Part shown: one piece after another, positions 16,417 through 59,201 of the stretch | How positions within the stretch are numbered: the first letter of the stretch is position 1 | How the letters are laid out: every line of letters begins with the position of its first letter | Assembly (NCBI GenBank): GCA_001801175.1 | Contig: MGWZ01000063.1 | Span: 1 to 59,661 of the forward strand | Direction of reading: 5' to 3' | DNA: 59,661 nucleotides | DNA from: Gallionellales bacterium RIFCSPLOWO2_02_FULL_57_47 | GTDB taxonomy: Bacteria; Pseudomonadota; Gammaproteobacteria; Burkholderiales; Gallionellaceae | Notes under the pieces: model-generated | What the model was told of the DNA's origin: nothing | The model's input: the letters and a program-made list of their open reading frames with translations, nothing else | Databases searched by the model: none | Program-made: the position numbers and the translations under genes

Positions 16417-16639
16417 TTATAACGATCGTGTCAATTCGCCGCGGATAAAGCCTGATAATGACAATGGGCTTGCCATTCCTGCTGCCTCGCTTGGGACAGG
16501 TCTTTTGCCCAGCGCGATCACCTTGAACAGTTCACCCATCTCCGCCGGGCTGGTGAGTTTCTGCAATTGAGCAGAAAGCGGCAGGTAATCGCGCAGGTTT
16601 TCCGGCGAGGTGTCCTGCAACAGGTCGGCGATGCCGCAC
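16417..16639 (-). pseudogene. Duplicated 3' fragment of the midA-like methyltransferase gene
   Basis: The minus strand encodes LLQDTSPENLRDYLPLSAQL and TSPAEMGELFKVIALGK, nearly identical to the C-terminus of the intact midA-like gene at 18016-19242. DNA identity is high across about 135 bp (roughly 16506-16639 versus 18075-18207). Both copies end in LTRSL, but this one carries about 12 additional residues before the end. There is no start codon or N-terminal domain, so it is a truncated relic. It abuts a transposase remnant at 16640 and lies in direct orientation to the intact gene. Confidence 0.85.
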
Positions 16640-18015: not shown

Positions 18016-19242
18016 CTATAGCGAACGCGTCAGGTCTCCACGGGCGAATCCACACAGCGGGCCCGCGATATTTTTGCCCAACGCGATCACCTTGAACAGT
18101 TCACCCATCTCCGCCGGGCTGGTGAGTTTTTGCAGCTGCGCAGAAAGCGGCAGGTAATCGCGCAGGTTTTCCGGCGAGGTGTCCTGCAGCAGCTCGGTAA
18201 TGCCGCAGTTGATCAGGAAGAACGCCTGGCTGGTGTAACCCAGCAGCTCCAGGCCGGCATCAATACCGCATTCGGCGATGCCGGTGAAATTTACATGCGC
18301 GGTGATGTCCTGCAAGCCGGGCAGAAAGAACGGGTCGTCATGCGCATGGTGGCGGTAATGGCACATCAGGGTGCCGCTGCTGCGTTGCGGATGATAATAC
18401 TCGCGCGCGCCGAAGCCGTAATCGATGAACAGCATCGCGCCCTGTTCCAGACAATTTGCCAGGCTATTAACCAGTCCGCACGCGGCGAGGCAGATTTCGC
18501 TGACGTAATCGTCCGGAACACTGGCCGCTTCGACAGGCCTGTCCTGAGCCTGTCCTGAGCCTGTCGAAGTGGCGAAGTCGAAGGGCTCAGGACGGGCCTG
18601 TTGCGCGGCATGCAGCAAGACCGCATCTCCGATGGCGCGCTCCTGCCAGATGAAGCCGTTTTCGCTCAGTGCGACGCCGCGTTCGGTGATTGCGCCGTCG
18701 CGCCAGTGCACCAGATGCACTGGCAATGCATCGAGCACTTCGTTGGCGATGATGGCGCCGCTGAAATTTTCCGGCAATTCGTCCAGCCAATGTACACGGT
18801 TCCTCAGGTGCGGCATCCTGTTGTGCAGGGTATCTTGCTGGCGCGCGCGCAAGTCAGCGCTCACCTCAAGGATCGCGTAGCTGTCCGGCAAGTTGCCGGA
18901 TTTCTCCAGTTCGGCAAGCATATCCGCCGCCAGTTTGCCGCTGCCCGCGCCCAGTTCCAGAATATGCGGCGCACTGGATGCCATGATTTCCGCCGCTTGA
19001 CGAGCCAGGGTACGCCCGAACAGCGGAGACAGTTCCGGTGCGGTGATGAAGTCGCCCGCCGCGCCGAATTTGTGCGCTCCCGCGGTGTAATAACCCAGTC
19101 CGGGCGCGTACAGCGCCAGCTCCATATAGCGCGCAAAGGAAATCCAGCCGCCGTGTGCGGCGATATCGCGCCGGATGAATTCGACCAGGCGTGCGCTGTG
19201 ACGGGCGGCTTCCGGGCTGGGTGAGGGTAGGGGAGCGGGCAT
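18016..19242 (-). CDS. MidA/NDUFAF7-like SAM-dependent methyltransferase (COG1565)
   Basis: This 408-residue protein belongs to the COG1565 family, whose eukaryotic member NDUFAF7/MidA methylates an Arg of complex I. The N-terminus has ISFARYMELALYAPGLGYYT and GDFITAPELSPLFGRTLA. Motif I is ILELGAGSGKLAADML, followed by SAILEVSADLRARQ-like and IIANEVLDALPVH blocks, and an acidic FIDYGFGAREYYHPQR motif. Around codons 215-239 a loop contains a cluster of short dispersed repeats (18527-18600). It diverges from the pteridine reductase. Its 3' end is duplicated at 16417-16639. The bacterial substrate is not established. Confidence 0.85.
   Translation of the reverse strand: MPAPLPSPSPEAARHSARLVEFIRRDIAAHGGWISFARYMELALYAPGLGYYTAGAHKFGAAGDFITAPELSPLFGRTLARQAAEIMASSAPHILELGAGSGKLAADMLAELEKSGNLPDSYAILEVSADLRARQQDTLHNRMPHLRNRVHWLDELPENFSGAIIANEVLDALPVHLVHWRDGAITERGVALSENGFIWQERAIGDAVLLHAAQQARPEPFDFATSTGSGQAQDRPVEAASVPDDYVSEICLAACGLVNSLANCLEQGAMLFIDYGFGAREYYHPQRSSGTLMCHYRHHAHDDPFFLPGLQDITAHVNFTGIAECGIDAGLELLGYTSQAFFLINCGITELLQDTSPENLRDYLPLSAQLQKLTSPAEMGELFKVIALGKNIAGPLCGFARGDLTRSL
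18527..18600. repeat. Composite cluster of repeat B inside the midA-like gene
   Basis: Several overlapping copies of the TTCGACAGGCTCAGGACAGG-type element lie head to head here: GCTTCGACAGGCCTGTCCTG, a second CTGTCCTGAGCC, CTGTCGAAG, then GAAGTCGAAGGGCTCAGGAC. The host frame stays open through it, adding a loop around PEPFDFATSTGSGQAQDRPV. Related single 24-bp copies occur in hemF, purD and fthC. Confidence 0.8.
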
Positions 19243-26039: not shown

Positions 26040-27452
26040 TTAATATCGATAATGGTTGGCCTTGTAAGGGCCTTCCTTGGGTACGCCGATGTAGGCGGCT
26101 TGCTGGTCGGTCAGCGTGCTCAGTTGCGCATTCAGCGTGGTCAGTTGCAGTCGAGCAACTTTTTCGTCCAGATGTTTGGGTAACGTGTATACGCCAATGG
26201 GATAGTCCTTGGTGCGGGTAAATAGTTCAATCTGCGCGATGGTCTGGTTGGCGAACGATGAGGACATCACATAGGACGGATGGCCGGTGCCGCAGCCCAG
26301 GTTCACCAGGCGGCCTTCGGCCAGTAGCAGGATGCGCTTGCCGTCAGGAAAAATCACATGATCGACCTGCGGCTTGATGTTTTCCCACTTGTATTGCTTG
26401 AGCGATGCAACGTCGATTTCGTTGTCGAAGTGTCCGATGTTGCACACGATGGCCTGGTTCTTCATCTTTTTCATATGATCATGAGTGATCACATGGTAGT
26501 TGCCGGTGGTCGTGACAAAAATGTCGCCGTGCTCGCACGCGTATTCCATCGTGACCACGCGGTAACCTTCCATCGCCGCCTGTAGCGCACAGATCGGGTC
26601 GATCTCGGTGACCCAGACTTGCGCAGACAGCGCGCGCATGGCTTGCGAACAACCTTTGCCCACGTCGCCATAACCGACGATCACGGCAATCTTGCCGGCG
26701 ATCATCACGTCGGTGGCGCGCTTGATGCCGTCCACCAGCGATTCGCGGCAGCCGTACAGATTGTCGAATTTGGATTTGGTGACGGAATCATTCACGTTGA
26801 TGGCCGGGAACTTCAGTTCGCCGCGCTCATGCATCTGGTACAGGCGGTGCACGCCGGTGGTGGTTTCCTCGGTCACACCCTTGATTGCGGCCAGGCGTGT
26901 GGAATACCATTTTTTGTCCACTTCCAGCTTGGCCTTGATCGAAGCGAACAGGCAGGTCTCTTCTTCCGAGCCGGGATTGTTCAGCAGCGTAGCGTCTTTT
27001 TCGGCACGCGCGCCCAGATGCAGCAACAGCGTGGCATCGCCGCCGTCGTCCAGAATCATGTTGGAAAGACCGCCGTCCGCCCATTCAAAAATGCGATGGG
27101 TGTAGTCCCAGTACTCGGTCAGTGTTTCGCCTTTGACCGCGAACACCGGCGTGCCGGTCGCGACGATCGCGGCGGCGGCGTGGTCCTGTGTCGAGTAAAT
27201 GTTGCAGGAAGCCCAGCGCACTTCCGCGCCCAGTGCAACCAGAGTCTCGATCAGCACGCCGGTCTGGATCGTCATGTGCAGCGATCCGGTGATGCGCGCG
27301 CCCTTGAGCGGCTGGGTCCTGGAGAATTCCTTGCGGATCGCCATCAGGCCGGGCATTTCGATTTCGGCGATAGCCAGTTCCTTGCGTCCCCATGCGGCCA
27401 GGGACATATCGGCGACGATGTAATCGGTGAATTCTTTTGCAGCAGCGTTCAT
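26040..27452 (-). CDS. ahcY: S-adenosylhomocysteine hydrolase
   Basis: This 470-residue NAD-dependent enzyme splits SAH into adenosine and homocysteine, removing the product inhibitor of methyltransferases. Family landmarks include [34 protein letters not shown], the NAD-binding [18 protein letters not shown], and the C-terminal dimer tail ending [10 protein letters not shown] that reaches into the neighbouring active site. An in-frame ATG lies 4 codons earlier, but its own bases form the GGAG ribosome site for the ATG at 27452 ([12 protein letters not shown]). An SAH riboswitch (27461-27568) lies directly upstream, so SAH should raise its expression. Confidence 0.97.
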
Positions 27453-27460
27453 CTTAAACT

Positions 27461-27568
27461 CCATTCATAAGTGGTTAATGAATGGGTGCAGTTGAAACGT
27501 TGAACCACTGGCTCCGAGCCTGACGGGGGGCTGGTTGCCCAGACCCGCTGCAGCACCCCTCGGAGGGC
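27461..27568 (-). ncRNA. SAH riboswitch upstream of ahcY, with expression platform
   Basis: On the minus strand the leader reads CTCCGAG (27559-27565), the conserved GGGGTGCTGCAGCGGG, a variable hairpin, CCGTCAGG and CTCGGAG (27512-27518). This matches the SAH riboswitch core, with the two heptamers as P1. Downstream, CCATTCAT (27478-27485) can pair with ATGAATGG (27461-27468), burying part of the GGAG ribosome site. The loop of that hairpin holds AACCACT (27470-27476), which is fully complementary to AGTGGTT (27503-27509) next to P1. The two folds exclude each other, a simple translational ON switch. Core assignment from known family; platform inferred. Confidence 0.85.
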
Positions 27569-27585
27569 GGGTAAAACATGAATCA

Positions 27586-27646
27586 CGTAGGGCGGGTTAC
27601 ACCCGCCTTTAAAACTTGTGAGGCGGCGGGTGTAACCCGCCCTACG
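27586..27646. repeat. Nested palindromic intergenic element between metK and ahcY
   Basis: Arms of 22 bp (27586-27607 and 27625-27646, CGTAGGGCGGGTTACACCCG type) are perfect inverted repeats around a 17-bp spacer. Each arm is itself a small hairpin (GGCGGGT-TAC-ACCCGCC). It shares GTAGG...CCTAC ends with the element at 50492-50535. It lies in the transcribed spacer if metK and ahcY are one operon. Confidence 0.8.
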
Positions 27647-47657: not shown

Positions 47658-48587
47658 TCATACCCAGTCTTTGGGCACCAAAAACTCCTCATATAGCTCT
47701 GCTTCAGCCGTGCCTTTTTCGGGATGCCAGTCATAGCGCCATTTCACCAGCGGCGGCATCGAGAGCAGAATGGATTCGGTGCGGCCGCTGGATTGCAGGC
47801 CGAAGATGGTGCCGCGGTCGATTACCAGGTTGAATTCGACATAGCGGCCGCGCCGGTAGAGTTGAAAATCGCGCTCGCGCTCGCCATAGGGTATGTCTTT
47901 GCGGCGTTCCAGGATAGGCACGTAGGCGGACAGGAAATGATCGCCGACGCTTTGCTGGATCGCAAATGCGGTGGCGAAATCCGGTTCGCTCAGATCGTCG
48001 AAAAAGATACCGCCGATGCCGCGCGGTTCGCTGCGATGTTTGAGATAAAAATATTCGTCGCACCACTTCTTGAATTTGGGATGCAGGTCGTCGCCGAACG
48101 GCATCAGCGCATTCTTGCAGGTTTGGTGGAAATGCACCGCGTCTTCCTCGAAACCGTAATAGGGCGTCAAGTCCATACCGCCGCCGAACCAGAACACCGG
48201 CGGTTCGCCCTCTTTCATTGCCACGAACATGCGCACATTCATATGCGTGGTGGGCGCGTAGGGGTTGCGCGGATGCAGCACCAGCGACACGCCCATCGCT
48301 TCCCAGCGGCGGCCCGCCAGTTCCGGGCGGTGCGCCGTCGCGGATGGCGGCATCCTGTCGCCCTTCACATGCGAAAACGCCACGCCGCCGCGTTCCAGCA
48401 CGTTGCCTTCCTCGAGGATGCAGCTTCTGCCTGTCCCGAGCGTGGTCGAGGGGCCGCCACCGCCTTCCGGTCGGTCCCAGCTGTCACGGCGGAATTTCCT
48501 GCCGTCCACCTGCTCCAGCCGTTCGACGATGAGTTCTTGCAGTTTGACAAGGTATTCCCTGACGGCTGCGGAATCGAAGTTGCTCAT
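47658..48587 (-). CDS. hemF: Oxygen-dependent coproporphyrinogen III oxidase
   Basis: This 309-residue enzyme converts coproporphyrinogen III to protoporphyrinogen IX using O2. Family blocks present: [88 protein letters not shown]. Between GGGG and [19 protein letters not shown], eight additional residues (PSTTLGTG, codons 46-53) are encoded by a 24-bp repeat B copy; other HemF proteins run directly from GGGG into R-[SR]. The loop is near the substrate-binding side, so the insertion must be tolerated. GGGGGA precedes the ATG; tsaC lies 12 bp upstream. Confidence 0.96.
48429..48452. repeat. 24-bp repeat B insertion in hemF
   Basis: The coding strand reads CCCTCGACCACGCTCGG followed by GACAGGC, exactly eight codons (46-53), inserted between conserved GGGG and RS of HemF. 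It matches the same family as copies in purD and fthC: CCYTCGRC, a 3-4 bp spacer, then CTCRGGAC. Confidence 0.8.
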
Positions 48588-48599
48588 GTTTCCCCCTGT

Positions 48600-49157
48600 T
48601 TAACTGCGGATAATTTGGCCATCCACCCATGCGCGGATCGTGGAAGGCTTTTTGCGCTTGCCCACGCGCCCCGGCAACACCCACACCTTGCGTCCGAGCA
48701 TACGCCGGCACTCGGCGTAAGTCCTGGCGGGGCGCTGCCCGCTGCGATTGGCGCTGGTGGAAACCAGCGCGCTGTTCACGCCCCGGCAGAGCAGCGCAGC
48801 TTGTGGATGTGCGGTTAACCGCACCGCCAGGGTGCCATGTGAGCCGCGCAGCCAGCGCGGTGTTGAATGATGGGCCGGCATGAGGTAAGTGATCGCTTGC
48901 GCTCCATCGCTCTTCAATCTTGCCTGTTCTTCAGGCGTGAGCGGTTGCAGATAACGCGCCACTTGCTTGTAACCCGCTGCAATCAGGATCAGCCCTTTGT
49001 GCTGCGGGCGTTGCTTGAGCTTGAGCAGGCGCAGCACGGCAGTGCGGTTGTCAGGGTCGCAGCCCAGTCCGTAGCAGGATTCGGTGGGGTAGGCGATCAG
49101 GCCGCCGCGCCTGAGGTGTGCGGCAATGCGGCGATACGATGTGCTATTGCGGAACAA
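48600..49157 (-). CDS. tsaC: Threonylcarbamoyl-AMP synthase (Sua5/YrdC family)
   Basis: This 185-residue single-domain YrdC protein makes threonylcarbamoyl-AMP for the t6A37 modification of ANN-decoding tRNAs. Key parts are the nucleotide-site RRGGLIAYPTESCYGLGCDP, KQRPQHKGLILIAA and LVSTSANRSGQRPA. It lacks the C-terminal Sua5 domain, as in E. coli TsaC. The only fitting start is TTG at 49157, behind AGGAAG in the last codons of purD; the purD stop codon lies immediately before it, so re-initiation is likely. hemF follows after 12 bp. Confidence 0.92.
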   Translation of the reverse strand: MFRNSTSYRRIAAHLRRGGLIAYPTESCYGLGCDPDNRTAVLRLLKLKQRPQHKGLILIAAGYKQVARYLQPLTPEEQARLKSDGAQAITYLMPAHHSTPRWLRGSHGTLAVRLTAHPQAALLCRGVNSALVSTSANRSGQRPARTYAECRRMLGRKVWVLPGRVGKRKKPSTIRAWVDGQIIRS

Positions 49158-50471
49158 CTACTTCCTGTGAACAGCAATCGCGCGCCAGCCGATGTCGCGC
49201 CGCATCTGGCATCCGTCGAAATGAATGCGGTCGGCGAGTTCATAGGCGTGTTTCTGCGCAGCTTTCACCATCGTGCCGAGTGCGACGACGCACAGCACGC
49301 GTCCGCCGCTGGTGACTACGTTGCCGTCATGCAAGGCAGTACCGGCATGGAACACATGCGCGTCTTCCAGTTCTTTTGCCCGTGGCCCAGGCAGCCCGCT
49401 GATGACATCGCCCTTGCGCGGAGCATCCGGATAATTCGCCGCCGCCAGCACCACGCCCAGTGCGGTGCGCCGGTCCCATTCCGCTTCTATCTGGTCGAGC
49501 GTGCCGTTGATGGCATGTTCGACGATCACTGAAAAATCGCTTTTCAGGCGCAGCATGATAGGCTGGGTTTCCGGGTCGCCCATGCGGCAGTTGAATTCCA
49601 GCACCTTGATGCCGCCCTGCGGGTCGATCATCAGCCCGGCGTACAGAAAACCGGTGTAGGTAATGCCTTCGCTTTCCATGCCGCGCACTGTCGGCCCGAT
49701 CACTTCGCGCAGCACGCGCGCATGGATATCCGGGGTGACCACCGGGGCGGGCGAATACGCGCCCATGCCGCCGGTGTTGGGGCCGTTGTCGCCGTCCAGC
49801 AGGCGTTTGTGATCCTGGCTGGTCGCCATCGGCAAAACATTTTTTCCGTCGACCATGACGATGAAACTGGCTTCCTCCCCAGCCAAAAATTCTTCGATCA
49901 CCACGCGCGCACCGTCCCTTCGGCCAGGCTCAGGACTGGCATCGCCCGGCTTGTTATCGGACAGCATCATGTCGATCGCAGCGAACGCCTCGTCCTTGCT
50001 CATCGCAACGACCACACCCTTGCCCGCGGCAAGTCCGTCAGCCTTGATGACGATGGGCGCACCGTGCTTTTCGACATAGGCGCGCGCGGCGGCGATGTCG
50101 CTGAAGGTCTCGAAGAATGCGGTGGGAATGTTGTGCCGCACCATGAAACGCTTGGCGAAATCCTTGGAGGATTCCAGCTGTGCGGCGGCCCTGGTAGGCC
50201 CGAAGATTTTCAGCCCTGCGGCACGGAAGGCATCGACCACGCCCGCCGCCAGCGGCGCTTCCGGGCCGACCACGGTGAGTTCGATGTTTTCGCGCTTGAC
50301 GAATTCGATCAGGTCGGGAATGGCGGTGATGGCAAAATTTTCCACGCCATCTTCCAGCGCCGTTCCGGCATTGCCCGGCGCGACATACACTTTCTGCACC
50401 CTGGCGCCTTGCGCCAGACGCCACGCCAGCGCGTGTTCGCGGCCACCACTTCCTATTACCAGAATTTTCAT
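49158..50471 (-). CDS. purD: Phosphoribosylamine-glycine ligase (GAR synthetase)
   Basis: This 437-residue ATP-grasp enzyme performs the second step of purine synthesis. It begins [20 protein letters not shown] and contains [37 protein letters not shown] and [17 protein letters not shown]. Between NKPGDA and [18 protein letters not shown], codons 179-186 add SPEPGRRD, a 24-bp repeat B copy absent from normal PurD, in the loop before the lid of the ATP-grasp domain. It is in the purH-purD-tsaC-hemF run; 68 bp with a palindromic element separate it from purH. Confidence 0.96.
49914..49937. repeat. 24-bp repeat B insertion in purD
   Basis: The plus strand reads GTCCCTTCGGCCAGGCTC followed by AGGACT, eight codons (179-186) on the coding strand, in opposite orientation to the hemF copy. 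Conserved PurD sequence resumes directly on both sides (GDA and GARVVIEEF). Confidence 0.8.
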
Positions 50472-50491
50472 ATCTACCTCGAAGATCAGCC

Positions 50492-50535
50492 GTAGGTCGG
50501 GCTTTGCCCGACATGGTGGGCAGAGCCCACCCTAC
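50492..50535. repeat. Double-hairpin palindromic element between purH and purD
   Basis: Two adjacent perfect hairpins, GTCGGGC-TTT-GCCCGAC (50496-50512) and GGTGGGC-AGA-GCCCACC (50515-50531), are enclosed by GTAGG (50492) and CCTAC (50531-50535). The bounding motif and design match the element at 27586-27646. Confidence 0.75.
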
Positions 50536-50539
50536 ATGT

Positions 50540-52105
50540 TTAATGTCTGAAGTGGCGGAAGCCGGTAAACACCATCGCCAACCCATGCTCATCGGCTGCC
50601 GCGATGACTTCCTCATCGCGCATCGAACCGCCCGGCTGGATCACGGCTTTTGCGCCTGCCGCCGCCAGCACGTCGATGCCGTCGCGGAACGGGAAGAAGG
50701 CATCTGATGACACCACGGAACCTGTCAGGCTCAGCCCGGCGTTCTGCGCCTTGATGCTGGCAATGCGCGTGCTGTCCACGCGGCTCATCTGACCCGCTCC
50801 CACGCCCAGTGTCTGGCCGTTCTTGCAGAACACGATGGCATTGGACTTTACATACTTCGCGACGCGCCAGGCGAACAGCAGGTCTTGCAGTTGTTCCTTG
50901 CTTGGCTGTGCCTTGGTCGCCACCTTGAGCTGAGCTGCCTGCACGTTCAGCGTATCCGGCGACTGTACCAGCAGTCCGCCGCTGACGCGCTTGAAGTCGA
51001 ACTGGTTATGAGCGTTGGACAACGGCACGGTGAGCACGCGCACGTTCTGTTTTGCCGCGGTGACCTTGAGCGCTGCCTCGGAGGCGCTCGGCGCGATGAT
51101 GAGTTCGACGAACTGGTTGGCGGTGATCTGCGTCGCGCTGTCGGCATCCAGTTCGCGGTTGAAGGCGATGATGCCGCCGAACGCCGAAGTGGTGTCGGTC
51201 GCGTAGGCCAGTTTGTAGGCGTTGAGCGGAGTGTCGGCGATCGCCACGCCGCAGGGGTTGGCGTGCTTGACGATGACACAGGCGGGTTGATCGAAGGTCT
51301 TGACCAGTTCCCATGCGGCATCGGCATCGCCTATGTTGTTGTAGGACAGTTCCTTGCCCTGCAGCTGGGTGTAGTCGGCAATGCCGCCCGCCACCGGGTT
51401 GAGGTCGCGGTAGAACGCCGCGCTTTGATGAGGGTTCTCGCCGTAACGCATCTCCTGCACCTTGGCGAAATTGAAATTGATCTGCGCCGGGAACGCGCTC
51501 TTGGTGCCGTCCGCATCGATCGCGGTGAGATAGTTGCTGATCGCGCTGTCGTAGGCAGCGGTATGCGAAAACGCCTTCTTCGCCAGATCGAAACGCGTGG
51601 CGTCGGAGACGGCTCCGTCATTGGTCTGCATTTCGGCCAGCACCGAAGTGTAGTCGGACGGGTCGGTGACGATGGCAACGTGGCCGTGGTTCTTTGCCGC
51701 CGCGCGCACCATGGTCGGGCCGCCGATGTCGATGTTTTCGATGGCATCCTCCAGCGTGCAACCCGGCTTGGCGACGGTCTCCGCAAACGGGTACAGATTT
51801 ACCACCACCAGGTCGATCGTCGGAATGTTGTGTTTTTTGAGCGTTGCAACATGCTCCGGCAGATCGCGCCGCGCCAGGATGCCCGCGTGTACCTTGGGTT
51901 GCAGGGTCTTCACGCGTCCGTCCAGCATCTCCGGAAAGCCGGTGTAATCCGCCACTTCGGTGACAGGGATGCCGTTTTCGGCGAACAGCCTGGCGGTGCC
52001 GCCGGTGGAGAGGATTTTTACGCCGAGCTGGTGCAGTCCCTGCGCGAATTCGAGAACGCCGGATTTATCCGACACGCTGATGAGTGCCTGTTTGATTGTT
52101 GCCAT
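50540..52105 (-). CDS. purH: Bifunctional AICAR transformylase / IMP cyclohydrolase
   Basis: This 521-residue protein catalyses the last two steps of IMP synthesis. The N-terminal MGS-like cyclohydrolase domain begins [20 protein letters not shown] and has [34 protein letters not shown] and [16 protein letters not shown]. The AICAR transformylase domain has [40 protein letters not shown] and [13 protein letters not shown]. Full length. Upstream, fis lies 107 bp away behind a long inverted repeat; purD follows. Confidence 0.97.
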
Positions 52106-52123
52106 GATGGTTCCAAGTAAAAA

Positions 52124-52204
52124 AGTCGTTAGTTGTTAGTCATTAGTTGTTAGTTGGGGTTGTGCGCTTCGTGGTTTAACTGGCGACTAACGTCTAACGA
52201 CTGG
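52124..52204. repeat. TTAG-rich long inverted repeat between fis and purH
   Basis: Left arm 52124-52154 (AGTCGTTAGTTGTTAGTC...) and right arm 52175-52204 (...GGCGACTAACGTCTAACGAC) are complementary with a few mismatches around a loop of about 20 bp. Both arms have a TTAGT-type three-base rhythm, as in the element before ubiD. Confidence 0.7.
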
Positions 52205-52212
52205 TTTTGGAA

Positions 52213-52464
52213 TCACGCGATTCCGTGCTGCAGCATTTTCTTGCGCAGGGTGTTGCGGTTGATGCCCAGCATTTCCGAAGCGCGCGTCTGGTTGCCGTCC
52301 ACATGTTCCAGCACCATTTCGAGCAACGGTTTTTCAACGCAAGCCATCACCATGCCATACATGTCGCAGCACGGTTTTTCGCCGTCCAGATCCTTGAAAT
52401 ATTCCTTGAGCGCCTTGCGCACGTAGCGTGCCAGGTCATTTTCGTTGATCAAGCAATCACTCAT
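52213..52464 (-). CDS. fis: Fis-family nucleoid DNA-binding protein
   Basis: This 83-residue protein has the conserved Fis C-terminus: LLEMVLEHVDGNQTRASEML followed by GINRNTLRKKMLQHGI, a helix-turn-helix identical in layout to E. coli Fis. The N-terminal part (NDLARYVRKALKEYFKDL) is the activator/inversion arm. Fis bends DNA and adjusts transcription with growth phase. It overlaps the dusB stop by 4 bp in ATGA, the classic dusB-fis operon in which fis is translated after dusB. Confidence 0.95.
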   Translation of the reverse strand: MSDCLINENDLARYVRKALKEYFKDLDGEKPCCDMYGMVMACVEKPLLEMVLEHVDGNQTRASEMLGINRNTLRKKMLQHGIA

Positions 52465-53468
52465 GCAGCCAATTCCCCAAGGTAATGCAGTCGCGTTCCG
52501 CGCTGCGCCTGTTCCGAAAAAAACTCGTCCACTGCCGCCAACTGCCCGGCAGTGCTTTCCAATTGATTCATGCGGTGGCGGAAATGCGCCGAACCGGCCA
52601 GCCCTTTGGTGTACCAGCCGATGTGCTTGCGCGCCACGCGCAACCCGGTGTGCTCACCATAAAATTCGTACAGCTCATGCACATGCGCCAGCAGCACGCG
52701 GTGGATTTCGCCGACTTCCGGCGCAGGAAGATGCTCGCCGGTTTTCAGAAAATGCCCGATCTCGCGGAACAGCCACGGGCGGCCTTGCGCTGCGCGACCT
52801 ATCATCACCGCATCCGCGCCGGTTTGATCCAGCACGAATTTGGCTTTTTCGGGCGTCGTGATGTCGCCATTGGCGATGATGGGTATGCTCACGCTGGCCT
52901 TCACCGCCGCGATGGTGTCGTACTCCGCATCGCCGGTGTAGGCGCAGGCGCGGGTGCGGCCATGAATTGCCAGCGCCTGGACACCGGACGTTTCGGCAAT
53001 TCGGGCGATGCGTATCGCGTTGCGATTCTGTCTGTCCCATCCGGTGCGGATCTTGAGAGTGACCGGGACATTCACCGCGCTGACCACCGCTTCCAGCAGC
53101 CGGGCTACCAGCGGCTCGTTCCGCAACAGCGCGGAACCTGCCATCACGTTGCAGATTTTTTTTGCGGGACAACCCATGTTGATGTCGATGATTTGCGCAC
53201 CGCGATCCACGTTGTGTTTCGCGGCCAGAGCCAGCATTTTTGCATCGGCGCCGACGATCTGAACCGAGACCGGATCGGCCTCGCCTTGATGGTCGGCGCG
53301 ACGCATGGTTTTTTCCGAGCCATACAACAACGAATTGGACGCCACCATTTCGCTCACCGCCATGCCCGCGCCCATGCGCCTGCATAACATGCGGAAAGGC
53401 CGGTCCGTCACCCCCGCCATGGGGGCAACAATCATATTGTTTTTCAGTTGATAGGGGCCGATACGCAT
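52461..53468 (-). CDS. dusB: tRNA-dihydrouridine synthase B
   Basis: This 335-residue FMN TIM-barrel enzyme reduces uridine 17 in the tRNA D-loop. It begins MRIGPYQLKNNMIVAPMAGV and has VQIVGADAKML, the catalytic Cys in DINMGCPAKKI, VTLKIRTGWD, ALAIHGRTRACAYTG, and GADAVMIGRAAQGRPWLF. The conserved C-terminal helix region (HTGLRVARKHIGWYTKGL) places it in the DusB group. fis follows with a 4-bp overlap. Confidence 0.95.
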   Translation of the reverse strand: MRIGPYQLKNNMIVAPMAGVTDRPFRMLCRRMGAGMAVSEMVASNSLLYGSEKTMRRADHQGEADPVSVQIVGADAKMLALAAKHNVDRGAQIIDINMGCPAKKICNVMAGSALLRNEPLVARLLEAVVSAVNVPVTLKIRTGWDRQNRNAIRIARIAETSGVQALAIHGRTRACAYTGDAEYDTIAAVKASVSIPIIANGDITTPEKAKFVLDQTGADAVMIGRAAQGRPWLFREIGHFLKTGEHLPAPEVGEIHRVLLAHVHELYEFYGEHTGLRVARKHIGWYTKGLAGSAHFRHRMNQLESTAGQLAAVDEFFSEQAQRGTRLHYLGELAA

Positions 53469-53717
53469 GTTGGTTTTCCGCGAGGGGGGTGGGATTATAA
53501 ATGAAACCGGGTGGCATGTTATGATTCTGCTGCATGAATTTTGATATCGTGATTGCCGCTGGTTGACAGGCGCGTGCCTGCTCGGTTGCCGCCCTGATTT
53601 GCCCCTGGCTGCTGCCGGGTTTCATGCACAATCCGGGGTTGAATGCCGCCCGTCATATCGACCGGACAGTATCTGCTGGTACAAGCAGCCTTTTAATAAA
53701 CAATAGAGAATATTTTC

Positions 53718-54410
53718 ATGAAAAAACTGCCTGCCCTGATTTTGTTTACCCTGCTTTCTTCAGCTCATGCCGGAGAAGCTGAAATTCGCCAGTCGATGCA
53801 AAGCAAATTTCCGAACATCGGCAAACTCGAGCACATCGTTAAAACACCATACGCTGAGCTGTATGAGATTGTCATTGACGGCCAGCTTTTGTACACCGAT
53901 GAAAAAGGGCAATATCTGTTCGATGGCAGCATAATCGAGACGAAAAGCCGCCTAAACCTGAGCGATGAACGGCGGCGCAAATTATTTGCGATCAATTTTG
54001 ACAAGCTGCAGCTCGGCCTTGCGGTGAAAAAAGTAAAGGGCAATGGCAAGCGCAGGATGGCCTATTTTACCGATCCCAACTGCAGCTTCTGCAAGCGTCT
54101 GGAAAAAGAACTGGCCAAGGTAAGCGATGTCACACTATACGTGTATCTGTATCCGATTTTCCCGAACTCAAGTGAAACCGTGCGCAACGTGCTCTGTGCA
54201 AAAGACCCGGTCAAAGCGTGGGATGACTTGATGTTGAACAGCATCGCCCCAGCCGGCGCGAATTGCGAAACATCAACCGACAAGGTGCTGGCCCTGGGTA
54301 AGGAACTTCGCGTCAACGGCACGCCGAACCTGATTTTTGGCAACGGGACCCAATCCCCGGGTTATTTGCCGGCGGAAGAAATTGAAAAAAATTTGAACGA
54401 TACAAACTAA
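53718..54410 (+). CDS. DsbC/DsbG-like thiol:disulphide interchange protein
   Basis: This 230-residue periplasmic protein has a signal peptide (MKKLPALILFTLLSSAHA). An N-terminal dimerisation region (EIRQSMQSKFPNIGKLEHIV) is followed by a linker and a thioredoxin-fold domain with DPNCSFCKRLEKEL, active-site Cys about 122 and 125, and the cis-Pro loop NGTPNLIFGNG. The active site CSFC differs from the CGYC of E. coli DsbC. Two further Cys are present in NVLCAKD and ANCETS. It should isomerise or reduce wrong disulphides in the periplasm. Followed after 11 bp by the PAS-GGDEF gene on the same strand. Confidence 0.88.
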   Translation: MKKLPALILFTLLSSAHAGEAEIRQSMQSKFPNIGKLEHIVKTPYAELYEIVIDGQLLYTDEKGQYLFDGSIIETKSRLNLSDERRRKLFAINFDKLQLGLAVKKVKGNGKRRMAYFTDPNCSFCKRLEKELAKVSDVTLYVYLYPIFPNSSETVRNVLCAKDPVKAWDDLMLNSIAPAGANCETSTDKVLALGKELRVNGTPNLIFGNGTQSPGYLPAEEIEKNLNDTN

Positions 54411-54421
54411 TAGGACTCATC

Positions 54422-55324
54422 ATGGATCGCACAGCAAACATTTCCCAGGATTTGCTTACCAAGGCCATCAATGAATCGCACGATGGCATTATTATCGCCG
54501 ATGCGCAGCAGCAGGGTTTCCCCCTGGTTTATGCCAACCATGGATTTGAGAATTTGACCGGCTATTCCGCTGACGAAGTCATCGGCAAGAGCTATCACTT
54601 CCTTCAGGGGGGCGATGTTGGGCAGCCGGAAGCGGCGGCAATAAATGCTGCGATTGCCAGCAACGAGAGTTGCGTTGTTACGTTGCGCAACTATCGCAAG
54701 GACGGGTCAATGTTCTGGAATGAGACCAGCATTTCTCCGATGCATAACGCCGAATCCGCCCCCACCCATTTCATCGCTATCCAGAAAGATGTGACGGCCA
54801 GAATTTTGCTGGAACAACAGATGGGCCGCGTCGATCCGCTGGTCGGGATCAGCAACCGCCACCATTTCGACCAGCGATTCACCGATGCGCTGGTCTTTGC
54901 CAAGCGCGCCCACAGCGGGATGTCGGTATTGATAATTGAACCGGATCTCTTCAGCCAGTTCATTCAGCGCTATGGGCAGTCGGCGGGTGACGAGTGTCTG
55001 CGCAGCGTGGGCGATTGCATCGCAAAGTTGTTTGTGCGCACGTCGGATTGCGTGGCGCGATACGAAGGCGGGGAGTTTGCCGTCGTGTCTTTGTCCTTTG
55101 GCGCCGGTGCATTGCGCCAGCACACCCAGAAGCTTTGCGAGCAGGTGCACATGCTGAACATCCCGCACAGCGATTCGCCGCTGGGAGTGGTCACCGTCAG
55201 TGTTGGCGGGGTTCATTGCATGCCGACTCGGGAAACCACGGAGGAAATGCTTATCGGGCTGGCCAATTCAAAATTACAGGCCGCCAAGCGCAGCGGATGC
55301 AACAGCGCGCTCATTATCGGGTAA
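54422..55324 (+). CDS. LOV-like PAS domain with degenerate GGDEF domain
   Basis: This 300-residue cytoplasmic protein has a PAS domain (about 10-130) with strong LOV-type features: PLVYANHGFENLTGYSADEV, GKSYHFLQGGD and LRNYRKDGSMFWNETSISPM. In light-sensing LOV domains the motif is GxNCRFLQ; here the photoactive Cys position is Tyr58. A GGDEF domain follows (about 135-300), but its signature reads ARYEGGEFAVV instead of RYGG[DE]EF, so the first Gly and the acidic residue are changed and cyclase activity is doubtful. It may sense redox or flavin state and act as a c-di-GMP effector. Probably co-transcribed with the DsbC-like gene. Confidence 0.85.
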   Translation: MDRTANISQDLLTKAINESHDGIIIADAQQQGFPLVYANHGFENLTGYSADEVIGKSYHFLQGGDVGQPEAAAINAAIASNESCVVTLRNYRKDGSMFWNETSISPMHNAESAPTHFIAIQKDVTARILLEQQMGRVDPLVGISNRHHFDQRFTDALVFAKRAHSGMSVLIIEPDLFSQFIQRYGQSAGDECLRSVGDCIAKLFVRTSDCVARYEGGEFAVVSLSFGAGALRQHTQKLCEQVHMLNIPHSDSPLGVVTVSVGGVHCMPTRETTEEMLIGLANSKLQAAKRSGCNSALIIG

Positions 55325-55351
55325 GAATTACCGCCGGCCGGATGTTTGCCG

Positions 55352-56557
55352 CTACTGGCCAAGCGCCGGTTCCGCGCCCTTGGGAAACAACACCCACATC
55401 TGGCCGCTCTGCTTCATGCGTCCCGCCTGATTTCCGGCCTGTTCACCGAAACCCCAGAAGAAATCGCCGCGTACCGCACCCCTGATCGCACCGCCGGTAT
55501 CCTGTGCCAGCATCAGGCGGTTCAGCGGCTCGACCGTGTTCGGATAAGTGGTGGCGAGGAACACCGGCGCGCCAAGCGGGATGGTGCGCGCATCGACAGC
55601 CAGGCTGTATTCATTGGTCAGAGGCACACCCAAAGCACCCAGCGGAGCGGGGAGTTCATTGGGCAATTCGCGGAAAAACACATAGCTGGGGTTAAATTCC
55701 AGCAGGCTGTCCAGTTTTTCTGGATTTTTTTGCGCCCACAGCTTGATGTTCTGCATCGAGGATTCCTCGAGTTTGAACGCGCCCATTTCGACCAGCTTCT
55801 TGCCGATGGAAGTGTAAGGGTGGCCGTTCTGCTCGGCATAACCGACTTTCACCAGGCTGCCGTCCGGCAATTCGATGCGTCCCGATCCCTGGATTTGCAG
55901 GAAGAACAAATCGACCGCGTTGTCCACCCAGAATAATTCGCGCCCCTGCAGCGGGGCTTTGCCGTTATCGATCTCGCTGCGCTTGTAATAAGGCACGATG
56001 CGATTGCCTTGCAACCGTCCGCGCAAACGCAAATCCTTCAGTTGCGGATACACATCGCCCAGATCGATGGCCAGCAAATCATCCGGAGCAGCATACAGCG
56101 GATAGCGAAAGCGGGCTGTTTTAACCCGGCTGCCGGCAAGCTTGGGCTCATAGTAACCGGTGATCAATCCCTGCGAAGAACCATCCGGATTGAATACCTG
56201 ATAGGGGGTAAAACCCTCCTCAAAAAATGCGCGCAGCGAGTTGTTGTCCGGCTGTGTCAGCTCATAGGCGCGCGCGCATATCGACTGCCAGCCCGGCTTG
56301 TTCTTCAGCGCGCTGCAGCTTTGCCAAAAGGCCGCCCAGGTTTGCCGCAAGTCTATCGTTTGCCAATCCGGCAACATCTCCCACTTGCTTACCGCAAACG
56401 GCGTGTAGGGCGCAGTGTCGGCAGTCGCCAGCACGACGGGCGGCTTGGGCGGCGCGGTGCAGGCGGCAAGAAAGACCAGAAGCAGGGGCGCCGCGCGCCG
56501 TGCCCATGAAAAACGGGGAAAAAGGGAAAAATGATTAATGTAAAACACGTGGCACAC
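55352..56557 (-). CDS. mltA: Membrane-bound lytic murein transglycosylase A
   Basis: This protein of about 401 residues is a lipoprotein: LLLVFLAAC with the lipidated Cys at about 33. The MltA barrel includes AFFEEGFTPYQVFNPDGSSQ, LITGYYEPKLAGSR, FFLQIQGSGRIELPDG and VGYAEQNGHPYTSIG. The catalytic Asp region is LAQDTGGAIRGAVRGDFFWG. The enzyme cleaves peptidoglycan glycan strands at the outer membrane. The start is GTG at 56557 (a second GTG three codons later is also possible) and overlaps the apaG stop by 23 bp, suggesting coupling. Confidence 0.94.
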   Translation of the reverse strand: MCHVFYINHFSLFPRFSWARRAAPLLLVFLAACTAPPKPPVVLATADTAPYTPFAVSKWEMLPDWQTIDLRQTWAAFWQSCSALKNKPGWQSICARAYELTQPDNNSLRAFFEEGFTPYQVFNPDGSSQGLITGYYEPKLAGSRVKTARFRYPLYAAPDDLLAIDLGDVYPQLKDLRLRGRLQGNRIVPYYKRSEIDNGKAPLQGRELFWVDNAVDLFFLQIQGSGRIELPDGSLVKVGYAEQNGHPYTSIGKKLVEMGAFKLEESSMQNIKLWAQKNPEKLDSLLEFNPSYVFFRELPNELPAPLGALGVPLTNEYSLAVDARTIPLGAPVFLATTYPNTVEPLNRLMLAQDTGGAIRGAVRGDFFWGFGEQAGNQAGRMKQSGQMWVLFPKGAEPALGQ

Positions 56558-56918
56558 TCAGGACGAATTGCGGAATTTCGACTTCAAATTCGGAGCCATC
56601 CTCGGCCTGCATCCGGTAACTGCCGCGCATCGTGCCGACCTGCGTGGTCAGCACCGTGCCGCTGGTGTACTCAAAACCCTGGTTCGGCTTGAGCAATGGC
56701 TGTTCTCCCACCACGCCTTGACCGCGCACTTCCTGCACGTGGTTATGGGCATCGGTAATGACCCAATGGCGGCTGATGAGCCTGGCTGGCACGCTACCGG
56801 TGTTGGTGATGGTGATGGTGTATGAAAAAACGAATCGGTTGCCCGATTCATCGGATTGCTCCGGCAGGTAATTTACCTGCGTTTGTATATCGATGCCATG
56901 TGGATCTATTTTTTCCAT
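56535..56918 (-). CDS. apaG: ApaG family protein
   Basis: This 127-residue single fibronectin-III-like domain matches ApaG: VNYLPEQSDESGNRFVFSYT, ITITNTGSVPARLISRHWVI, VRGQGVVGEQPLLKPNQGFE, YTSGT and MRGSYRM. The bacterial protein has been linked to Co/Mg tolerance and related processes, but the molecular role is not settled. In-frame ATGs also occur at 56927 and 56954; 56918 gives the family length. It is divergent from ilvA and overlaps mltA. Confidence 0.92.
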   Translation of the reverse strand: MEKIDPHGIDIQTQVNYLPEQSDESGNRFVFSYTITITNTGSVPARLISRHWVITDAHNHVQEVRGQGVVGEQPLLKPNQGFEYTSGTVLTTQVGTMRGSYRMQAEDGSEFEVEIPQFVLSVPRVLH

Positions 56919-57011
56919 GCGTGGCATTTGAACCGATTTTGCCTTATGTCGCAAGAGCTTCGCTGCACTTTTATGCTAATCTGCGCGGGAATTTTCCAAA
57001 CAAATATAAAC

Positions 57012-58520
57012 ATGAACGGTTATTTGAAGCGCATCCTGAACGCCCGCGTCTACGACGTGGCGGTTGAAACGCCACTGGAGGCGGCGCCCAATTTGTCGGC
57101 GCGCATCGGCAATACCGTGTTGCTCAAACGCGAGGACATGCAGCCGGTGTTCTCCTTCAAGCTGCGCGGAGCGTACAACAAAATGGCGCAGCTTACGCCG
57201 GAACAGCTCAAGCGGGGGGTGATCGCCGCCTCGGCGGGAAATCACGCGCAGGGCGTGGCGCTCTCGGCGCAAAAACTGGGCTGCAAGGCAGTCATTGTCA
57301 TGCCCACCACCACCCCGCATATCAAGATACAGGCAGTGGCCGGCCGTGGCGCGAAAGTGGTGCTGCACGGCGATTCGTATTCCGATGCCTACCAGCATGC
57401 GCTGGAGTTGGAGCAACAAAGCCGGATGACTTTCGTGCATCCGTATGACGACCCCGACGTGATTGCAGGTCAGGGTACCATCGGCATGGAAATCCTGCGC
57501 CAGCACACCCGTCCGATCCACGCGATTTTCGTCGCCATCGGCGGCGGCGGGCTGATTTCCGGCGTAGCGGCTTACGTCAAGCAACTGCGGCCCGATATCA
57601 GGATCATCGGCGTGCAACCGGTCGATTCCGATGCCATGTATCGCTCGCTGAAAGCCAAACGGCGCGTCACGCTCGACCATGTCGGGCTGTTTGCCGACGG
57701 CGTGGCAGTCAAGCAGGTCGGGCAGGAAACCTTCCGCCTGTGCCGCAAGCTGGTCGATGAAATCATCCTGGTGGATACCGATACCGCCTGCGCCGCGCTC
57801 AAGGATGTTTTCGAAGACACGCGCTCGATACTGGAACCGGCGGGTGCGCTGTCCATCGCCGGTGCCAAGCTGTATGCCGCCCGCGAAAAGCTCAAGGGCG
57901 AAACGCTGGTTGCCATCGCCAGCGGCGCGAACATGAATTTCGACCGGCTGCGTTTCGTCGCTGAACGCGCCGATATCGGCGAGAAACGCGAGGCGATCCT
58001 CGCGGTCACGATTCCGGAAACGCCGGGCAGCTTCCGCAAATTCTGCGCGCTGCTGGGCAAGCGCAACATCACCGAATTCAACTATCGCTACGCCGACCCG
58101 AAACTGGCGCATGTCTTCGTCGGTATCCAGGTGCGCGATCAACTGGAAACTGCCGAGCTGGTGAACAAGTTGCAGCACAATAAATTGGCCACGCTGGATC
58201 TTTCCGACAACGAAATGGCCAAGCTGCACCTGCGCCATCTGGTCGGCGGCCACGCGCCGGAAGTGAAGGACGAAATCATGTTCCGCTTCGAGTTCCCAGA
58301 ACGCCCCGGCGCGCTGATGAATTTCCTCAACAGCATGAGCCACAACTGGAACATCAGCCTGTTCCACTACCGCAATCACGGCGCGGACTACGGCCGCGTG
58401 CTGGTCGGCATGCAGGTGCCGCACCACGACAAGAAAGCGCTGAAAACCTTCCTCGATACCCTCGGCTACCGCTACTGGGACGAGAGCGGCAACCCGGCGT
58501 ACCGGCTGTTTCTGGGCTGA
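57012..58520 (+). CDS. ilvA: Biosynthetic threonine deaminase
   Basis: This 502-residue PLP enzyme makes 2-oxobutyrate from threonine, the first step to isoleucine. PLP-binding Lys50 lies in VFSFKLRGAYN. ASAGNHAQGVALSAQKLGC, AIGGGGLISGVAAYVK and GVQPVDSDAMYRSLK are family motifs. Two ACT-like regulatory domains at the C-terminus (EAILAVTIPETPGSFRKF and MFRFEFPERPGALMNFL) mark the isoleucine-inhibited biosynthetic form. The frame extends upstream to 56856, but MNGYLKRILNARVYDVAVET at 57012 is the family start. fthC begins 3 bp after the stop. Confidence 0.96.
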   Translation: MNGYLKRILNARVYDVAVETPLEAAPNLSARIGNTVLLKREDMQPVFSFKLRGAYNKMAQLTPEQLKRGVIAASAGNHAQGVALSAQKLGCKAVIVMPTTTPHIKIQAVAGRGAKVVLHGDSYSDAYQHALELEQQSRMTFVHPYDDPDVIAGQGTIGMEILRQHTRPIHAIFVAIGGGGLISGVAAYVKQLRPDIRIIGVQPVDSDAMYRSLKAKRRVTLDHVGLFADGVAVKQVGQETFRLCRKLVDEIILVDTDTACAALKDVFEDTRSILEPAGALSIAGAKLYAAREKLKGETLVAIASGANMNFDRLRFVAERADIGEKREAILAVTIPETPGSFRKFCALLGKRNITEFNYRYADPKLAHVFVGIQVRDQLETAELVNKLQHNKLATLDLSDNEMAKLHLRHLVGGHAPEVKDEIMFRFEFPERPGALMNFLNSMSHNWNISLFHYRNHGADYGRVLVGMQVPHHDKKALKTFLDTLGYRYWDESGNPAYRLFLG

Positions 58521-58523
58521 CCT

Positions 58524-59201
58524 ATGCCGCTATCGCTCAAGCAGGTCATCCGCAAGAGCACGCTATCCCGGCGCGAGCATCTTCCCGCTAGCGTTCGCGC
58601 CGCTCACAGCGCGTCCATCACCGAACGTCTGATGCAGTTGCCGGAGTACCGGCAAGCCGAAGCCGTGCTGGGCTACATGAACTTCGGCGCGGAATTCGCC
58701 AGCGAGTTGTGGGTCGAGCGGGTGTTGGCCGAAGGCAAACGGCTGGCGCTACCCAAGGTGAACCACCACACTAACCAGCTTGACCTGTATTGGGTGGACG
58801 ATCCGGAGAACCAGCTGGCGGCGGGATTGTGGGGAATACGCGAGCCGGTCGTGGAACGCTGCGAGCGGCTGAATGGCCTAAATGAGGTAGAATTCGTCCT
58901 GCTGCCGGGTGTGGCATTTGCCCGCGACGGCGCGCGGTTGGGTTATGGCAGGGGTTTTTACGATAAGCTGCTGATGAAACAACTAGCCATTCGACCAAGC
59001 GAGCAAACAGCACTCGCCAAGCCTGTCCTGAGTGAAGTCGAAGGATCGCTGGTTATGTCAAACATGACTCAACGCCCCGTACTGGCAGCAGCAGCGTTTT
59101 CGCTGCAAATCGTCGAATTTATTCCGCAGGAAGCAACAGATGTAAAAGTCGAGTGGATTATTACCGAGCAGGAAACAATAGCTTGTTCTGTAAATGATTA
59201 A
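58524..59201 (+). CDS. fthC: 5-formyltetrahydrofolate cyclo-ligase
   Basis: This 225-residue enzyme returns 5-formyl-THF to 5,10-methenyl-THF using ATP. It begins SLKQVIRKSTLSRREHLPAS, has ALPKVN and GIREPVVERC, and ends its core with VEFVLLPGVAFARDGARLGY and GRGFYDKLL, the ATP/Mg site. Between DKLLMK and RPVLAAAAFSLQ lie about 30 residues, where homologues usually have about 10. This surplus is made of repeat A (58979-59056) with repeat B (codons 167-174, PVLSEVEG) nested in it. The protein nevertheless continues to a normal C-terminus. Operon with ilvA and probably aceE. Confidence 0.93.
   Translation: MPLSLKQVIRKSTLSRREHLPASVRAAHSASITERLMQLPEYRQAEAVLGYMNFGAEFASELWVERVLAEGKRLALPKVNHHTNQLDLYWVDDPENQLAAGLWGIREPVVERCERLNGLNEVEFVLLPGVAFARDGARLGYGRGFYDKLLMKQLAIRPSEQTALAKPVLSEVEGSLVMSNMTQRPVLAAAAFSLQIVEFIPQEATDVKVEWIITEQETIACSVND
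58979..59056 (+). repeat. Dispersed repeat A, copy 2 (inside fthC), interrupted by repeat B
   Basis: ACAACTAGCCATTCGAC, GCAAACA, GCCAAG and TCGCTGGTTAT occur in the same order and spacing as in the ATPase copy at 8391-8443, except that 24 bp are inserted between GCCAAG and TCGCTGG. The repeat is read here in a different frame from the ATPase. Confidence 0.7.
59022..59045. repeat. 24-bp repeat B insertion nested in repeat A of fthC
   Basis: The plus strand reads CCTGTCCTGAGTGAAGTC followed by GAAGGA, exactly codons 167-174. It has the same length as the hemF and purD insertions and is in the same orientation as the purD coding strand. Confidence 0.8.

Follow-up and report, generated by a model that had tools for sequence, protein, structure and literature searches.

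A dispersed 24-bp unit inserted without target duplication into genes, an intergenic repeat and itself in a Gallionellaceae genome

The 59,661-nt contig MGWZ01000063.1 of Gallionellales bacterium RIFCSPLOWO2_02_FULL_57_47 (the whole of which is called the window below) contains copies of a 24-bp unit that consists of two conserved halves on either side of a variable spacer, with the family consensus CCCTTCGRC-NNN-RCTCRGGACAGG. At clean sites exactly 24 bp have been inserted, with no target duplication and in either orientation relative to the gene, and such insertions are found in genes, in an intergenic repeat, beside other copies of the unit and inside them; the copies within genes occupy stop-free frames. 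That the unit is mobile we regard as very probable, and the explanation we favour, and think likely as a whole, is that it is a non-autonomous, ultra-small mobile DNA, built of two halves around NNN and moved in trans, most likely in single-stranded form and by an HUH-type enzyme. The identity of the mover as an HUH-type (Y1) enzyme acting in trans, deduced from the form of the insertions, we put forward more tentatively.

Consensus, empty sites and fixed length

One consensus was drawn from 40 copies of the window's own assembly (G000, 2.81 Mb in 127 contigs; at most 3 mismatches) and another from 154 copies in loci of named genomes. In the window the long pattern has four matches, including a stray with 3 mismatches at 16478, against 0.03 expected from shuffles; a shorter core allowed 2 mismatches brings no excess over chance there (7 found, 4.2 expected), so it is the long form that holds the signal. 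The genome-wide search proposed in the original prediction gave 42 long-pattern matches in G000 (arrays and composites counted in) and 1 for the reversed pattern, which is far above chance, and a gapped core gave 81 matches and its control none. By their spacers the gapped-core matches fall into a 24-type (three free letters plus R) and a 23-type (two plus R, mostly AAG or AGG), with 3 further matches of other lengths, and the observed arrays of both types alike have a 24-bp period. Coincidental similarity, or unremarkable indels of variable loops, would agree with the behavior of the short core in the window and with the variability of the hemF site within the genus (below), but it is hardly credible in the face of these controls and of the exact 24 bp at clean junctions.

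The original prediction had placed three 24-bp units of varying orientation in hemF, purD and fthC. All three are present, each exactly 24 bp long and in differing orientations (Table 1); the position given for fthC is exact, and the best registers in hemF and purD lie 1 and 2 bp away from the positions given, respectively. Pfam matches span the inserts in HemF and PurD, and a solved PurD structure is without exactly the 8 inserted residues, while the FthC Pfam match ends at residue 153, ahead of the unit and of the end of repeat A, a larger repeat within the same gene. Copies of repeat A elsewhere run uninterrupted through GCCAAG|TCGCTGG, the bond at which the unit splits the fthC copy, so repeat A arrived first, and the nested order that had been proposed for fthC is upheld. 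The relative G007 matches fthC to the left and right of the stretch formed by repeat and unit (query positions 11-450 and 539-678) with the two segments 16 bp apart, so that the window genome is 72 bp longer here. Repeat A itself is a dispersed repeat of ~60 bp (ACTAGCCATTCGAC...GTCGCTGGTTAT) that at least 25 of the 37 genomes from the genus contain and that lies in frame inside fthC in the window.

Relatives in the genus were found with hemF-purD and fthC probes and aligned at the DNA level, and two further probes covered 10 chosen relatives, rows from one genome being merged. At purD the junction is without exactly these 24 bp in 22 of 25 aligned relatives, and the other three bear decayed 24-bp inserts at the same bond. 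The hemF site, a variable loop in the genus, is a clean empty site in 5 of 14 aligned relatives and off by one codon in 3 more, and the remaining 6 have an element of their own, remnants or an unrelated loop. The tldD site is empty in 5 of 6 aligned relatives and filled in the sixth (G024) by its own copy with a different spacer; among nine relatives the ate site is empty in five, filled in three and occupied by an 18-bp remnant in one; the first of two rseP sites is empty in all 8 relatives; and the 120 bp (5 × 24) of extra DNA in aat was found in none of 9 aligned relatives. No target duplication is present at the clean junctions. The comparison with relatives that the original prediction had called for thus shows most of them to be without the extra residues at purD, and its idea of an active insertion process holds as far as insertion is concerned (clean empty sites in tldD, ate, rseP, purD and hemF) and does not extend to present-day movement.

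A dispersed repeat supplies a similar comparison: two of its copies are empty (L052 and L083, GCAATGCGCTACG|CTTATTGCACC) and two are filled (L016 and L030), the filled ones being exactly 24 bp longer and having different spacers. L016 lies at the 3' end of an iPGM gene and L030 is intergenic, with no coding signal on either side; because the insert is exactly 24 bp in the intergenic copy too, its length is a property of the element and not of the reading frame. A variable-gap scan was noisy (26-bp and partial inserts), and its counts are not used as evidence for the 24-bp length. The tilS gene at L007 (G000:C47:27523-27674) holds, in frame, a composite insert made up of four or more units, one of them a 26-bp variant that ends in CTAAAG.

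In a quickly built tree of purD from 29 genomes, the filled purD state (4 genomes) required 4 changes, 3 of which are forced by well-supported branches; on the same tree hemF required 6 changes (its states were set by eye), tldD 2 and ate 2. Such repeated occupancy means either that the same bond was hit repeatedly, or that there was precise loss or allele exchange, and since the decayed purD inserts of G018 and G015 are alike, exchange is favoured for that pair. The conserved halves, free spacer and two orientations would also suit an immobile site for protein binding or DNA uptake that has a function and is maintained by selection wherever it occurs, but this is very improbable, since the insertions are exact and relatives show empty sites, the decayed copies at purD and hemF imply no upkeep, and nearly complete relatives (G001, G006 and G030 among others) have 0 copies.

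Arrays, nesting and reading frames

In G000, its relatives, named genomes and viral contigs there are 29 same-orientation neighbours no more than 400 bp apart, and for 15 of them the distance is exactly 24 bp; opposite-orientation neighbours number only 3. Eight of the 15 pairs share a spacer and are duplications, and in the seven with different spacers either a unit was added at the edge of an older one or the spacer changed. The window also has a fourth site, absent from the original prediction, which is triply nested: CCACTTCGACAGGCTCAGGACAGG lies within CCCTTCGACTTCG...CTCAGGACAGG, and this unit in turn interrupts CCCGTCCTGAG...CCTGTCGAAGCGG. In comparison with PDB entry 4f3n this site has 36 instead of 12 residues between two aligned stretches, and the excess of 24 residues equals the 72 bp of the three units.

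A scan for self-nesting at most internal split positions, with a loosened tandem filter, found 8 cases, four at NNNR|CTCAGG and four elsewhere; one of the former (L291) is a re-reading of an ambiguous 48-bp case, and two of the eight lie in one viral contig (L499). With the strict tandem filter, which excluded the window's own nested case, 4 cases were found, none of them at NNNR|CTCAGG. The scan sought gaps of 24 or 48 bp only and is silent on length. The idea that all nested copies lie at one internal bond came from a pattern that inspected only that bond, and it was dropped when the wider scan placed half of the cases elsewhere.

The flanks display a weak preference for purines on the left and for C and then pyrimidines on the right, both in 30 non-tandem copies of G000 and in 125 copies from named-genome loci (in this wide set the search pattern itself demanded the first C to the right). 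The four bases left of the unit agree with CAGG at 1.6 of 4 positions on average in the G000 copies (0.83-1.33 at other offsets) and at 1.33 in the wide set (0.89-1.18 at other offsets), again a weak preference. A circle junction or serine-recombinase core with GG at both ends was considered and rejected, since GG in the left flank proved to be only a tendency. The spacer letters NNN are unevenly distributed: TNC is frequent among the wide-set copies, and TGC and TAC prevail in one Chloroflexi genome. This unevenness looks like genome-specific populations.

The 40 copies of G000 merge into 34 sites, and scoring these as genic or intergenic, as the original prediction had advised, puts 17 inside Pfam-recognised genes, 6 at gene ends and 11 where there is no recognised gene (among the last, the coding scan covered only L018). 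The 17 hosts are purD, hemF, fthC, tldD, a hydrolase gene, a UvrD-type helicase gene, gcvPB, tilS, a LytTR regulator gene, pheT, uvrC, ate, priA, rseP (twice), dxs and a NirB-like gene. In tldD and gcvPB the unit precedes the Pfam-matched stretch and in fthC it follows it; for tldD and fthC the relatives show that the surroundings are coding. At the gene-end sites (bamB, glyQ, iPGM, pilX, xerC/D-like and 3HCDH) the start or stop may have moved. Copies of the 23-type are also present in cysS, rlmM, mutS and priA. Several of the host genes serve DNA repair or recombination (priA, uvrC, UvrD-type, mutS and xerC/D-like; loci L023, L019, L003, L074 and L029), which has also been published for intragenic REPs.

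The unit's sixth reading frame contains TGA, and none of the 17 genic sites uses it, while all five stop-free frames are used: PFDxAQDR at 3 sites, PSTxLRTG at 5, LRxxSGQ at 1, PVLSxVEG at 5 and CPExxRR at 3 (the Pfam-supported frame was taken where a longer antisense one had been listed). The frame tolerance that had been claimed for three genes holds. Zero of 17 in the sixth frame would occur by luck about 5% of the time, so this argument is supportive only; the pattern fits insertion anywhere followed by loss of the broken genes. In the wide set, after 16 weaker copies were dropped, 51 of 152 copies (at most 2 mismatches) lie in open frames of at least 220 codons, across the five open frames; the stop codon rules the sixth out here, and an open frame does not in itself prove a gene.

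Candidate movers

The precise ends and the missing target duplication suggest that an HUH-type (Y1) enzyme cuts and joins single strands, in which case it would act in trans, encoded at another place in the genome or on an element that passes through. The target preference, which is weak, with purines to the left of the break and C and pyrimidines to its right, would be recreated at the ends of the unit and at NNNR|CTCAGG, and this would account for the 24-bp arrays and for part of the self-nesting. The spacer would drift while only copies with intact halves keep multiplying, as in the dynamics of sequence populations, and the diversity of NNN would then require no randomising step. As a rough estimate, which is not a fit, if ~20 positions must stay intact a copy has a lifetime of ~1/(20 μ), and with ~40 copies two lineages would meet ~N/2 lifetimes, or ~1/μ, back, which is enough to saturate three free letters.

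The Y1_Tnp family (PF01797) has 76 matches in 32 of 37 genus genomes. We examined 47 such loci (45 in the genus and 2 of G047; a few overlap), including all six of G000. The one copy of the unit found near any of them is an insertion in the neighbouring cysS gene, and the REP-associated tyrosine transposase (RAYT; REP, repetitive extragenic palindrome) at this locus has its own GTAG repeats. This RAYT (L194, G000:C123:21709-21954) is flanked on both sides by GTAGGAGC / GCTCCTAC and makes up an ordinary REPtron beside cysS; the cysS unit is of the 23-type and encodes PVRPELVEG. The association with RAYT genes that had been suggested at the outset, and with it the hypothesis of a flanking RAYT, was thus not borne out at the Y1 loci examined, and a moderate correlation of counts remains: Y1_Tnp number and copy number have a rho of 0.46 over 37 genomes (p 0.005) and of 0.40 in a second set of 27 genomes, three of them of this genus (p 0.04), both uncorrected for kinship.

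A number of observations weigh against movement of a fixed 24-bp unit by an HUH-type enzyme. A copy lies within up to 1.5 kb at only 1 of the 47 Y1_Tnp loci, and no enzyme is tied to the unit. No Y1_Tnp match was found in Nitrospira bin75 (63 copies), a Methylomirabilota metagenome-assembled genome (MAG; 35 copies) or a Rhodocyclaceae MAG (27 copies), although these three copy-rich genomes are draft assemblies, from which an enzyme may be missing or lost. RNA folding is no better than that of shuffles (z-scores 0.12 to 1.30 for six sequences), the top position pairs among 147 distinct copies have no convincing stem-like covariation, and no lagging-strand bias was seen relative to GC skew (13 to 14; the contigs are short and the proxy is coarse), both a hairpin and such a bias being expected of HUH transposition. 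Neither the second rseP site nor the rlmM site of the 23-type, both in variable stretches, is clean; three composite copies contain a 26-bp variant, and there are partial repeats of other lengths. That separate lineages have the same site occupied, as in the 4 changes on the purD tree, also fits gene exchange or loss. A hairpin with NNN as its loop, in which C8-G12 and R7-C13 could pair, was rejected, since folding and covariation gave it no support.

The unit could instead belong to a known class of REP-like elements that resident RAYTs, perhaps of subclasses without flanking REPs, mobilise. Intragenic REPs are described (PMC3733652), the missing target duplication fits HUH chemistry, the Y1 counts correlate with copy number (above), and genomes with a 232-257 aa orphan Y1 protein hold more copies (median 8 vs 3.5, p 0.003; the groups were set by eye, and two of these genomes were judged from partial genes). 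We nonetheless think this origin doubtful, since the unit has neither the GTAG/CGTC tag nor a hairpin, inspection of 11 long orphan Y1 loci found no copy close by on either side (the best match had at least 7 mismatches), and Y1 matches are absent from the three copy-rich genomes above and from the drafts G021, G034 and G036, which have 4-6 copies.

The main rival to an HUH-type enzyme in trans is an RNA or host-driven route, in which an RNA or short single-stranded DNA intermediate made from existing units is inserted by replication, repair or a reverse transcriptase with no dedicated transposase. It would agree with the exact matches to both halves in many phyla (the search demanded exact halves), with the lack of an enzyme near the loci examined, and with the movement through RNA that is said to have been suggested for the small dispersed repeats (SDRs) of Nostoc. 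Yet RNA family matches are found at the units in 0 of 15 loci (an origin from an RNA gene was rejected on the same Rfam result), there is no stable fold, and the precise 24-bp ends require a defined processing step, so we consider this route unlikely. Also improbable in our judgment is a wider version, in which the unit spreads with no linked or resident transposase by blunt insertion into genes and into itself, often at NNNR|CTCAGG, the mover being a conserved host or RNA-based machine that is not known to mobilise DNA; the unit would then be a generator of 8-codon cassettes across bacteria, the same halves reaching from Proteobacteria to Bacteroidetes, Chloroflexi, Nitrospira and Patescibacteria and adding peptides such as PFDxAQDR, PSTxLRTG or PVLSxVEG to essential proteins.

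Distribution, known small repeats and other features of the window

The distribution of the unit is patchy. With G000 included in both samples, copies are carried by 35 of 61 genomes and 4 of 25 genera in a sample of the genus and order, and by 9 of 397 genomes in a phylum-level draw made with a tighter pattern. The exact halves occur in at least 119 stretches of a species-genome collection from many phyla, and among 80 matches listed by title are Nitrospira, Bacteroidetes, Chloroflexi, Planctomycetes, Patescibacteria, Binatota and others; since the halves were requested exactly, this shows presence and not the degree of conservation. Twenty-seven named genomes have from 1 to 248 copies each and 0 matches to the reversed pattern; the count of 248 is that of a Methyloversatilis universalis MAG. 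A phage-borne element was rejected as an explanation, since the unit is rare in viruses (51 stretches among 2.9 million viral contigs).

By its description the closest known kinds are the SDRs of Nostoc and intragenic REPs, and the unit does not show the REP features tested. Nostoc punctiforme SDRs, reportedly described by Elhai et al. in 2008, are said to be 21-27 nt long, dispersed and mutually nested, and to have been proposed as the smallest mobile elements. They are reportedly confined to a cyanobacterial group, and some families have a shared secondary structure. Set against this description, the unit has in common with SDRs a small, dispersed form, precise insertion at a defined bond and nesting, but it is found in many phyla, shows no fold, lies in frame in essential genes and consists of fixed halves separated by a variable NNN. 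Rickettsia palindromic elements are palindromic, mostly longer than the unit and not known outside Rickettsia and its kin; they too are selfish DNA found in frame in many protein genes, whereas the unit is 24 bp long and not palindromic. IS200/IS605 elements insert without target duplication, as the unit does, but the unit has no hairpin ends and, at the loci examined, no encoded or linked transposase. The coarse comparison with GC skew showed no lagging-strand bias, and as regards the fixed tetranucleotide target that such elements have on one side, the weak agreement with CAGG described above was observed. Unlike miniature inverted-repeat transposable elements, which have terminal inverted repeats of 15-30 bp and a target duplication, the unit is 24 bp overall and has no duplication at clean junctions.

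REPs of the GTAG/CGTC type resemble the unit in being short and of high copy number, with some copies intragenic and the frame kept; Di Nocera et al. 2013 (PMC3733652) describe REPs inside genes, including uvr and other repair genes, with the protein frame kept, and also mention the Rickettsia elements. The unit, in contrast, has no GTAG or CGTC tag (TGTC near one end is without the 8-9 bp stem), has no 5-13 bp palindromic stem, does not flank the RAYT genes examined, and has exact matches in many phyla; REPs are mostly extragenic, whereas half of the unit's 34 sites are inside recognised genes. Other papers describe RAYT-family subclasses that lack REPs and single-strand transposition of the IS200/IS605 type (PMC6006769), a quasispecies treatment of REPINs (PMC8049555) and insertion of SDR5 into HIP1 (PMC4390886), and the Nostoc SDR work is cited in PMC3116915 and PMC4390886. 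We found no description of the unit's DNA or peptide strings in the open-access texts searched, which does not show that none is in print.

If the favoured explanation is true, the unit would be among the smallest mobile DNA elements seen and would mark how small mobile DNA can be; it also reveals a route by which inserts of 8 residues arise in the essential proteins of many phyla. Such inserts enter databases, where they stand out as odd peptides shared between proteins. Since related genomes offer sites both empty and filled, together with arrays and nested copies, the mechanism of very small repeats, a question that has stood since REPs and SDRs were described, becomes directly testable, and each clean 24-bp insertion is a natural experiment on insertion tolerance, as in UvrC, PriA, RseP, PurD and HemF.

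Table 1. Copies of the 24-bp unit, and repeat A, in the window
Feature	Position	Strand	Remarks
24-bp unit in hemF	48430-48453	-	gene 47658-48587 (-); adds PSTTLGTG or, in an equivalent register, GPSTTLGT
24-bp unit in purD	49916-49939	+	gene 49158-50471 (-); antisense to gene; residues SPEPGRRD
24-bp unit in fthC	59022-59045	-	gene 58524-59201 (+); lies within repeat A
Repeat A, left part	58971-59021	+	larger repeat dispersed in the genus; continues from 59046
Three nested 24-bp units, 72 bp	18525-18596	-	Methyltransf_28 / COG1565 gene 18016-19242 (-)
Middle nested unit, 24-type	18538-18585	-	CCCTTCGACTTCG / CTCAGGACAGG, interrupted by inner unit
Inner nested unit	18549-18572	-	CCACTTCGACAGGCTCAGGACAGG; 23-type core, still 24 bp

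Other repeats were noted during this work. Another repeat of ~95 bp (L318:10864-10958) is present in at least 9 of 10 relatives. In the window, 16503-16638 and 18072-18207 form a 136-nt direct repeat (93% identical copies 1.6 kb apart), the second copy of which falls in the methyltransferase gene that bears the nested units; direct repeats with mostly 102-bp spacing occupy 4087-4932 within an 860 aa open reading frame (ORF; 3822-6404, +); and at 27586-27646 the two 22-bp arms of a perfect inverted repeat (CGTAGGGCGGGTTACACCCGCC) enclose a loop of 17 bp. An S-adenosylhomocysteine riboswitch aptamer (RF01057, 47.3 bits) is matched at 27477-27567 (-), upstream of a 474 aa ORF at 26040-27464 (-).

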